A stretch of 64,000 bases of DNA, taken from positions 62,001 to 126,000 of the forward strand of contig JAJZIY010000002.1 of NCBI GenBank assembly GCA_021828475.1. The letters run 5' to 3'. Positions 30,720-37,084 of the stretch are shown here, piece after piece; positions within the stretch are counted from its first letter, which is position 1, and each line of letters starts with the position of its first letter. The notes below the pieces were generated by a model. The model searched no databases, was not told the origin of the DNA, and saw only the letters and a program-made list of their open reading frames with translations. The DNA comes from Actinomycetes bacterium. GTDB taxonomy: Bacteria > Actinomycetota > Acidimicrobiia > Acidimicrobiales > Palsa-688. A program made the position numbers and the translations under genes.

Positions 30720-30790
30720 AGCGAGCGACGGGAATCGAACCCGCGTTCTCAGCTTGGGAAGCTGATGTACTGCCTCTGTACGACGCTCGC
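30720..30790 (-). tRNA. tRNA-Gly (anticodon CCC)
   Basis: Cloverleaf on the minus strand: acceptor GCGAGCG with CGCTCGC, anticodon stem TCAGC/GCTGA with loop TTCCCAA (anticodon CCC), T-arm GCGGG-TTCGATT-CCCGT, discriminator T. CCA is not encoded. Length 71 nt, normal for tRNA-Gly. The 3' end faces the excisionase-like gene and relics, so it is a plausible attachment site. Confidence 0.95.
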
Positions 30791-34103: not shown

Positions 34104-34958
34104 TCAGGCGCTGAGGAAACCGGCACGCCCCGAGAGGTAGCCGGGGACCCGCACCTCGACCGGTCCCCGCCACCAACCCGGCTGCGCCGCCAGTACTTCC
34201 TCGTGCTCGGACAGCAGGGAGAAGACCTTCATCCCCTCCAGGAGCCACCGTTGCCCGTAACCGGGCACGGCCTTGGACAGCACGTTCACCACCTCGTAAA
34301 CGTTGGCCTCGACGGTCTCGGGGAGCTCGGCGTCCGCCACCATTTCCTGTACGGCACCGGCAGGCACCCTCGACAGCGCCGCTCCGAGGCTCGCAGCCAC
34401 CTCGAGCTCGGCGACGAACAGGGCCCGCTGCGACTCGCCGTCGCCGCGGTAGCGGGCCACCACACCTGCCTTCTGGGGGCGCGGGGGCTCGGACGGCGAC
34501 GTCGTCACGTCGCAACCGAGGAGACCGCAGAGGACGGAGGCAACCGTCTCGGGGCCGTTGGAGACCGCCGCGCCCAGGCCGTCAGCCTGACGATGGCCAC
34601 CCAGCGCCAGCTCCACCTGGTCGGCCAGGTCGTTGCCCGAGAAAGGCTTGGTCACGACGAAGTCGGCCCCGGCGTCGAGGGCATCGCGGTGCATCAGGGG
34701 CGTGGACTCGGAGGTCACGAACCCGAAGGGCACCTGGTTGCCTTCCTTGCGCAACACCTCGAGCAAGTTCATGCCGGTCATTTCGGGCATGTTCCAATCG
34801 GAGAGCACAAGGGCGACGCCGCCGTCACGGATGCGCTCGAGAGCCTGTCGCCCATTTTCCGCTTCCATCACATCGCGCGTTTCGTAGCCGGCCTTGCGCA
34901 GCTCGCGCATCACTATCATGCGCATCGCCCTGCTGTCGTCCACGACCAGGATCGCCAC
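34104..34958 (-). CDS. response regulator receiver fused to a CheC/CheX-like phosphatase domain
   Basis: 284 residues from GTG 34958 (AGGAGAGG ribosome site). Residues 1-120 are a CheY-like receiver: ILVVDDSRAMRMIVMRELRK, phospho-acceptor in LVLSDWNMPEMTGMNLLEVL, and the conserved K in FVVTKPFSGND. The C-terminal 150 residues contain AELPETVEANVYEVVNVLSK, in which E-V-V-N fits the E-x2-N active site of CheC/CheX/FliY phosphatases. Such a fusion would carry both the phosphorylated signal and its eraser. It forms an operon with cheR, 33 bp downstream. The CheX assignment is moderate. Confidence 0.8.
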   Translation of the reverse strand: MAILVVDDSRAMRMIVMRELRKAGYETRDVMEAENGRQALERIRDGGVALVLSDWNMPEMTGMNLLEVLRKEGNQVPFGFVTSESTPLMHRDALDAGADFVVTKPFSGNDLADQVELALGGHRQADGLGAAVSNGPETVASVLCGLLGCDVTTSPSEPPRPQKAGVVARYRGDGESQRALFVAELEVAASLGAALSRVPAGAVQEMVADAELPETVEANVYEVVNVLSKAVPGYGQRWLLEGMKVFSLLSEHEEVLAAQPGWWRGPVEVRVPGYLSGRAGFLSA

Positions 34959-35261
34959 AGACGCCTCTCCTTCCTCCACCCGCCAGGTCCCCGAGACGGC
35001 CTCGCAACCAGGTTGTTCCTCTTTCGGCATCGGCGGAGTGGGCATTAGGCCGTCTGGTCGGACCAGGGCCGTTGGTCCCTGACGGGGCGGGCTGCAAAAT
35101 AGGAGCAGCGGCGTCCGCGCAGGGCTCTGACCAGCCGTGACGCGTCCGGTGCCGGCCACTGTGCGTGGTGGGGGCGGTGCCGCAAAAGTGGTACCAAACT
35201 CGCGAAATGCCCATCGAAATCGGAACCGCTCCCACCTTTGGCCTGCCTTCGTCGCGCACAC

Positions 35262-35290
35262 TTGGCAACGGCGTTCGTGACGTGTAATCT
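35262..35290 (+). promoter_or_regulatory. strong sigma-70-type promoter
   Basis: -35 TTGGCA (35262-35267), 17-bp spacer, -10 TAATCT (35285-35290). This is the best match to the housekeeping consensus noticed in the window. Transcription would start near 35297 and run toward the hairpins and the SpoIIE gene. Confidence 0.7.
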
Positions 35291-35296
35291 CACACC

Positions 35297-35387
35297 CGGA
35301 GCGGGAACCCGCCGCCTGCTCCGCAGAGCGGATCCGAGATCCGCCGCTCGATCTGCTCCGTCAGTGGCGCCCTTCGGGGCGCCACTG
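35297..35387 (+). ncRNA. candidate structured small RNA or leader, three hairpins
   Basis: Directly behind the promoter three hairpins follow: CGGAGC (35297-35302) with GCTCCG (35318-35323); GCGGATC (35328-35334) with GATCCGC (35338-35344), loop CGA; and an 11-bp perfect stem capped by a TTCG tetraloop (35362-35387, CAGTGGCGCCC with GGGCGCCACTG counted from both ends). The last may end the transcript, giving an RNA of about 90 nt, although no T-run follows. Otherwise it is the structured 5' leader of the phosphatase gene 240 bp downstream. No protein-like frame occupies the region. I do not recognise a known RNA family. Confidence 0.45.
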
Positions 35388-35626
35388 GTGTGTCCGGAGT
35401 ACGCCGGCGGTCGGCCCTGTGCCACCTGCACCCACGTTGCGGGTACCGTCGGCGCTCACTTCCCGCGGCCCTCGTGCCGATGAAGATGAGGCGGAGTTCG
35501 CACCCTCAGCCGGGAGGTGGTCGTGAGCGGGTCGGCCGTAGCGGTCTCAGGGACCGCGACCAGGGGCGTCGACGGCAGCCCTCCCCGTGCTGCTAGTAAC
35601 GGACCGCGTGAGGAGCCATACCGCCC

Positions 35627-37084
35627 ATGTTGAGCAGCACTCTCGGCGGGACCGGGCCCCTGCCCGGTCTGAGCACTGACGCGGCAGTGGCCCAGCCTGG
35701 CGGCACCGGCGGGCCCAGGCCACAGGGCGCCGCGCCGGTGACGCACGAGGCGTCCCTGGCCCGGCTGTGGGCCGAGCGCGAACACCTGGAGGCCGAGAAC
35801 AACCGCCTCAGTGCCGATGTCGCCCGCCTGGAAGCAGTCCTCTGTCGGCTCGGGACGCTCACATCGCAGGTCGATGCCGAGGATCTGGCTTACGGCGTCA
35901 CCGAGGTGGCGCGAGACGTGACGGGTGCGCCTCTTGCCATGTTCGTGCCGGCCGAGGCCGCGGGCCCGCACGGCCCCTCGGTCGCGTGCGACGACGGCTT
36001 CCTGGCCGAGGCGCCCGAGCCCGCACGGGTCCCGCTGCTGGCGGGAGCGCTGTGGCGGGTCACGCCGCTGCGCATAGACGACGCCGCCGAATGGGACGCC
36101 GGGCAGCTCAACTACGGCCGCCTCTCGGACGGGCGCGCCCTGCGAAGCTGGGTGGGGGCCCCCGTGCGGTCCCGCTACGGTGACGCGCTGGGCGTCCTCT
36201 TCGTCGCCCACCCCGAGCCCAACGCCTTCACCAGCAGGGAGGAGGACCTGGCCCAGGGCCTGGCCGCCCACCTTGGCGGCACTCTGGACAACCTGGCGCT
36301 GTTCCAGGAGCGCGCCCGCGTCGCCGGTGCACTGCAGCAGACCCTGCTCCCACCGGTGCTGCCCGACGTGCCCGGCTTGGAGGTGGCCGCCCGCTACCGT
36401 CCGGCCAAGGCGCTGGCGCAGGTGGGTGGGGACTTCTACGACCTGTTCGAGGTCCGGCCCGGCGTGTGGGGCCTGCTGCTCGGCGACGTGTGCGGCGTCG
36501 GCCCCGAGGCGGCGGCGCTCACGGGCATCGCCCGGTACGCGACCAGGGCGCTGGCAACCCAGGAGCGCTCTCCCGGGCGGGTGCTCCTGCAGCTGAACGA
36601 CACCCTGTTCCGCTTCGACCTGCAGGACAAGTTCTGTACTGCCATCTACGCCGAACTGAGGCCCAAGGACGGCGACATCCATGTGACCATCGCCAACGGC
36701 GGCCATCCCTACCCCTTCCTCATGAGGTCCGACGGCCACGTCGAGGAGCTGATGGTCCAGGGGACCCTGCTCGGCCTCGTGCCCCAGATCACCGTCGACG
36801 AGCACGAGATCATCCTCGGCCCCGGCGACATAATGGTCGCCTACACCGATGGGATCATCGAGGCTCGCGATCCAGACGGCAACATGTTCGCCTCCGAAGG
36901 CGTCGCCGGGGTGCTCCCCCAGTGCGCCGGTGGCCACGCGTCCTCGATCGCCCGCCGCCTCGAGCTCGCGGTGCTCGAGCACCAGGCCGGCGGGACTTCC
37001 GACGACATGGCCATCGTCGTCCTGCAGAACACCGGGCAGGGGCAGGGCGCTGGCCGGGCCGGGGGGCGGCGCAGGAAGGGCTGA
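35627..37084 (+). CDS. GAF-domain PP2C/SpoIIE-type serine phosphatase
   Basis: 485 residues. A coiled coil (LARLWAEREHLEAENNRLSA) and a GAF-like sensor (about 85-225) precede a SpoIIE/RsbU phosphatase: LQQTLLPPVLPDVPGLEVAA, the metal-binding KALAQVGGDFYDLFE, DVCGVGPEAAALTG, TIANGGHPYPFL, YTDGIIEARDPDG and TSDDMAIVVL. These enzymes dephosphorylate STAS anti-anti-sigma factors; a STAS/kinase pair is at 55820-56730 in this window. The start follows a long leader with a candidate RNA. It is followed closely by vsr. Confidence 0.93.
   Translation: MLSSTLGGTGPLPGLSTDAAVAQPGGTGGPRPQGAAPVTHEASLARLWAEREHLEAENNRLSADVARLEAVLCRLGTLTSQVDAEDLAYGVTEVARDVTGAPLAMFVPAEAAGPHGPSVACDDGFLAEAPEPARVPLLAGALWRVTPLRIDDAAEWDAGQLNYGRLSDGRALRSWVGAPVRSRYGDALGVLFVAHPEPNAFTSREEDLAQGLAAHLGGTLDNLALFQERARVAGALQQTLLPPVLPDVPGLEVAARYRPAKALAQVGGDFYDLFEVRPGVWGLLLGDVCGVGPEAAALTGIARYATRALATQERSPGRVLLQLNDTLFRFDLQDKFCTAIYAELRPKDGDIHVTIANGGHPYPFLMRSDGHVEELMVQGTLLGLVPQITVDEHEIILGPGDIMVAYTDGIIEARDPDGNMFASEGVAGVLPQCAGGHASSIARRLELAVLEHQAGGTSDDMAIVVLQNTGQGQGAGRAGGRRRKG

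Follow-up and report, generated by a model that had tools for sequence, protein, structure and literature searches.

Three hairpins and two C-rich loops: evidence for a new family of small RNAs in the Acidimicrobiales

Results

In the window, by which we mean the whole 64,000-nt stretch of contig JAJZIY010000002.1 analysed here, a candidate small RNA of a new family with three hairpins lies at 35297-35391 on the + strand (positions 1-106 of the model correspond to window 35293-35397). It is flanked by a divergent gene encoding a response-regulator receiver domain (34104-35261, - strand; Pfam PF00072, E 4e-24), a mechanically called ORF of uncertain true start that lies outside the RNA, and by a downstream gene for a GAF-SpoIIE phosphatase (35627-37084, + strand; Pfam PF07228, E 3e-36), which we do not regard as a target in cis. 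Immediately upstream, a promoter-like element at 35262-35290 (+) combines a -35 hexamer TTGGCA (35262-35267) with a -10 hexamer TAATCT (35285-35290) across a 17-bp spacer. This arrangement had been proposed in a sequence-only reading of the same DNA; the sequence agrees with it and the motif recurs in the closest relatives, where a block resembling CACTTGGCAA-N-TA[AC]T[CG]T, with a TAnTnT-like -10, is found at the same distance. The promoter call rests on this conservation, because a strict sigma-70 consensus scan (at least 9 of 12 matches) does not list the TTGGCA-17-TAATCT site. TAATCT has been reported as a sigma-A -10 element in C. glutamicum (PMC10012870).

The RNA folds into three successive hairpins, all on the + strand. 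Hairpin 1 (35297-35323) has the stem CGGAGCGGG/CCTGCTCCG and the loop AACCCGCCG at 35306-35314, hairpin 2 (35326-35358) carries the loop AUCCGCCG at 35339-35346, and hairpin 3 (35360-35391), of the form GTCAGTGGCGCCC-TTCG-GGGCGCCACTGGT, resembles an intrinsic terminator, its fold at 35360-35389 consisting of 11 perfect pairs and further basal pairs with a UUCG loop. The three hairpins, the last with an 11-bp stem and a TTCG loop, had likewise been noted from the sequence and were borne out by folding, as the minimum free energy of 35297-35392 is -59.4 kcal/mol (z = -4.3), with none of 200 shuffles being equally stable; a slightly longer stretch around the RNA gave z = -4.4. A protein frame, which the earlier reading had also failed to see, is excluded by stops in all three frames across the members and by length steps that are not divisible by 3. 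The source genome holds one copy. The 5' and 3' ends of this copy are predictions, and its U tail is weak (GTGTGTCC), as it is in many members. A closing helix CACAC/GTGTG that emerged from the single-sequence fold is not kept in relatives and was rejected. Elsewhere in the window, a tRNA gene at 30720-30790 (-) is the sole Rfam match at gathering score.

By blastn, 22 genomes of its own taxonomic family contain the element. A covariance model built from 19 own-family sequences (R1) matched 23 of 32 own-family genomes and 80 of 298 genomes of the order Acidimicrobiales, and a second model built from 57 sequences (R2) matched 200 of 397 Acidimicrobiales genomes, distributed over 127 of 203 genera. 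R2 scores 93 bits in the window (E 3e-15), the window sequence being among those from which the model was built. For the half or so of the order genomes that have no match, assembly gaps or strict filters are perhaps the cause in some. In a phylum-wide sample all 13 matches fell within Acidimicrobiales, and in a class-wide sample every match but one did so. The exception (L190, in genome G434 of the same class and another order) is a 57.9-bit R2 match on a 3.3-kb contig, which may be a true outgroup member or contamination. Among the named members found by a pattern scan are the cultivated Acidiferrimicrobium sp. IK and Acidimicrobiaceae MAGs.

The structure is conserved with compensatory changes, as would be expected of a stand-alone sRNA. 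In the wide alignment of 57 diverse members, which was fitted to the model and is biased towards the structure, 97% of cells are paired, compared with 78.6% in shuffles and 36-48% when the partners were slid; changes on both sides, the test that the sequence-only reading had suggested, are present in 32 of 34 pairs against 19.2 in shuffles (0 of 500 shuffles reach 32), and double-change cells number 341 against 83. The first alignment, which was not fitted to a model, has 98.6% of its cells paired and 35 double-change cells versus 10.5 in shuffles, and individual distant sequences fold alike unaided (z from -5 to -7). Cells with G-U exceed those with A-C by 113 to 16, which fixes the + strand.

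While the stems change, the loops do not. Each column of the CCCGCC core of loop 1 is kept in at least 55 of the 57 members as the stem pairs around it compensate, the UCCGCCG core of loop 2 is kept in 55-57 of 57 above stem pairs that covary, and the G within both CCCGCC and UCCGCC is invariant (57/57). The family consensus is UUCCCGCCA for loop 1 and, for loop 2, the same AUCCGCCG as in the window. The core of hairpin 3, GGCGCC, is palindromic and nearly invariant, beyond what a terminator needs. We also observed that the GGCG arm of hairpin 3 (window 35360-35391, and in other members) is complementary to the CGCC of both loops; intramolecular competition between this arm and the loops is possible on the basis of this complementarity.

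The genes around the RNA vary. Within its own family, a GAF-SpoIIE gene follows the RNA in its own genus and in some further ones, other loci have an SPFH/Band-7 gene upstream together with a CoA-transferase or a photolyase gene, and in another genus dcd lies upstream. The signalling island described in the earlier reading holds for the source genome, where receiver-domain and GAF-SpoIIE genes adjoin, and not as a property of the RNA family. Outside its own family the RNA usually sits between nth (named by reading the protein) and hisD (named by Pfam), the median distance to hisD downstream being 324 nt over 40 loci. These distances were measured using the LDLRG motif, and the 44-locus hisD cluster includes fragments with approximate starts. 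A gene of some 70 aa intervenes between the RNA and hisD; in 37 of the 40 loci it occupies the opposite strand, and in the other three the same strand. This small gene is itself conserved (L113, L114, L154 and 37 further loci) and usually convergent with the RNA, with a consensus of ...ELSSVATALDELTRRVTAIAE...ERALRGARRRL. Furthermore, a TANNNT motif ends 6-12 nt before the start of hisD (34 matches in the 40 loci), from which we infer that hisD is probably served by a separate, near-leaderless promoter and that its transcripts may be leaderless. Own-family genomes retain hisD on other contigs; of these hisD genes only that of G006 has a strong RNA match upstream. Taken together, the varying neighbours, the small gene in between and the separate -10 of hisD indicate that the RNA is the leader of neither SpoIIE nor hisD, and the RNA is independent of its neighbouring gene; a constant 5' UTR position before one gene class, as in a cis leader, a riboswitch or a T-box, was not found, as the neighbours change.

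Signals at the two ends recur in subsets of the members, in which the RNA appears to have a promoter and a terminator of its own. Runs of at least four T near the 3' end are present in 28 of 84 members as compared with about 1% of control stretches. Among 61 distant members, 17 carry the motif GGAAC-N18/19-GTT at 6-10 nt upstream, compared with 0.3% of control stretches. This motif equals the published SigE/SigH promoter consensus (PMC10012870) and is absent from all 22 own-family members.

The impression that this is not a recognised RNA family was upheld, as Rfam 15 contains no match to the RNA at gathering or at lax thresholds (window and 12 diverse members), and none of its leader families matches in the window or in these 12 members. 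For 6C (RF01066) the window gives no match at gathering or at E up to 10, and with the limit at E 5 the 12 diverse members give none either, in a scan in which the 6C loci L071 and L072 score 46-47 bits. 6C is present in 2 of 99 order genomes, its loci do not match R2 at E 0.5, and one genome (G084) holds both 6C and the new RNA on different contigs. Loops with runs of about six C, a trait of 6C, are not found; the loops are CCCGCC and UCCGCC. As the models do not cross-match and both RNAs occur in G084, membership in 6C was rejected. CcsR1 (RF02791), by its Rfam name a stress-induced sRNA with a CCUCCUCCC motif, would share C-rich motifs and stress-linked expression with the new RNA, and it is known from other bacteria; its lone match (18.9 bits versus a cut-off of 65.3), at one locus, lies outside the new RNA on the opposite strand and was dismissed as chance. 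A search of the literature on sRNAs in Acidimicrobiia turned up no report of a regulatory RNA from Acidimicrobiales.

Target tests covered 674 kb of stretches from the source genome. There, GGCGG shows little enrichment at the Shine-Dalgarno position (24 at the peak, 14-22 per bin ahead of it), in contrast to GGAGG (46, versus about 5). Complementarity to the loops near starts was seen in 26 genes as against 11.8 +/- 6.3 for shuffled loops, a composition-sensitive measure for which 2 of 30 shuffles were as high.

Discussion

We propose, with a probability of roughly 0.65 for the explanation as a whole, that the element is a free-standing, trans-acting sRNA of about 95-105 nt that pairs through its two C-rich loops. 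That it is an autonomous sRNA of a new family seems very probable from the sequence comparisons. The sequence-only reading had offered either an sRNA of about 90 nt or a leader of the SpoIIE-phosphatase gene, and it is the sRNA that is supported, by covariation, by promoter-like and terminator-like ends and by conservation throughout the order. A role of the loops as RNA-pairing seeds appears probable, and that the targets are mainly translation-initiation regions is a tentative suggestion, which we hold at a little under even odds. Counting against the proposal are the slight enrichment of GGCGG at the Shine-Dalgarno position, the only modest excess of loop complementarity over shuffled loops, the weak U tail of this copy and of many members, and the lack of a match in about half of the order genomes.

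In mycobacteria, pairing of the C-rich loops of B11/6C with ribosome-binding sites represses the mRNAs concerned (PMC10470900). The new RNA resembles 6C/B11 in belonging to the Actinomycetota, in its size of about 100 nt or less, in its two hairpins with C-rich loops and in being a stand-alone gene; it differs in having UUCCCGCCA and AUCCGCCG in place of C6 loops and a separate third hairpin as terminator. In our reading 6C/B11 is its nearest counterpart in kind, and the RNA may work like 6C while belonging to a separate family. It would be transcribed from its own promoter, of housekeeping type here and of ECF stress type in many relatives, and would expose its two CCGCC loops as ready-formed single-stranded seeds. 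These seeds might base-pair with mRNA segments that contain GGCGG, probably close to translation starts, and the pairing might lower translation and stability of the targets, as described for mycobacterial 6C/B11. Hairpin 3 would terminate the transcript and protect its 3' end. The RNA might act on a handful of specific targets, or it might have a protein partner.

Such a partner is at the centre of one competing explanation, namely that the conserved loops bind, instead of mRNAs, a protein, to sequester a regulator or to provide a scaffold. A dimeric RNA-binding protein would call for a pair of similar loops held in fixed hairpins, and the enrichment of the loop complement at ribosome-binding sites is weak; however, no candidate protein came to light, in the precedent known from this phylum C-rich loops pair with RNA (PMC10470900), and we consider protein binding as the sole role of the loops unlikely. 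Another view is that the RNA is a divergent 6C member, given the shared phylum, two C-rich-loop hairpins of like size and the occurrence of 6C within the order. Yet 6C is not recovered in the window or in the diverse members even at lax thresholds, its loci fail the R2 model, G084 carries the two on separate contigs, and the CCGCC loops and distinct third-hairpin terminator depart from the C6 design, which makes this view quite improbable.

The other two explanations would tie the element to its neighbours. As a cis-regulatory leader or attenuator it would control the downstream gene, SpoIIE here and hisD in most relatives, and three points would fit: it shares a strand with SpoIIE and lies about 230 nt before it, it also precedes hisD, and hairpin 3 looks like a terminator. 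For SpoIIE this was rejected on synteny, since the structure is kept where the next gene encodes a photolyase, an opposite-strand CoA-transferase, or hisD behind another gene. For hisD, to which the nth-RNA-hisD context had pointed, it was rejected because of the intervening, mostly opposite-strand small gene and hisD's own adjacent -10; moreover, own-family neighbours are unrelated, with some on the opposite strand, and hisD in that family lacks a strong RNA match except in G006. We thus regard a leader as very improbable. A DNA or transcription-termination element, serving convergent genes in both directions without a functional RNA, is still less credible. At the nth-hisD site the small convergent gene does have its 3' end facing hairpin 3, whose conserved GGCGCC core is palindromic, but hairpins 1 and 2 with their loops are also conserved, in a strand-specific manner, and they persist where the RNA has moved beside other neighbours.

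If the RNA is a trans-acting sRNA as we propose, it could be a global regulator throughout the order, an RNA driven by stress sigma factors whose near-identical CCGCC seed loops would act on a regulon of GGCGG-containing mRNAs, with a seed code of its own that is independent of 6C/B11 and a terminator whose GGCG arm would be able to pair with the loops. We offer this wider picture as speculation that we consider possible and rather less likely than otherwise. Acidimicrobiales are widespread, mostly uncultivated Actinobacteria, and in about half of their sampled genomes there is now a well-supported RNA family, for which a covariance model is ready and whose loops suggest a seed that can be tested. 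C-rich-loop sRNAs would then be present in no fewer than two distinct sequence families of Actinomycetota, with the seed kept as the rest drifts, and an sRNA would be linked to ECF-type stress promoters.

Two variant forms of the RNA were observed. Three genomes of one genus (G058, G107 and G142) carry two copies each, which have diverged from one another (L096, L100 and L151 versus L098, L152 and L153), and in the second copy the flanks of loop 1 are altered (GUGCCCGCCAAGC). Members in family f10 (L136, L137, L141 and L144) are shorter and have a small second hairpin of the GAGCGGUCCCGCCGCCGCUC type, but keep the CCGCC loop and the ECF-type promoter.
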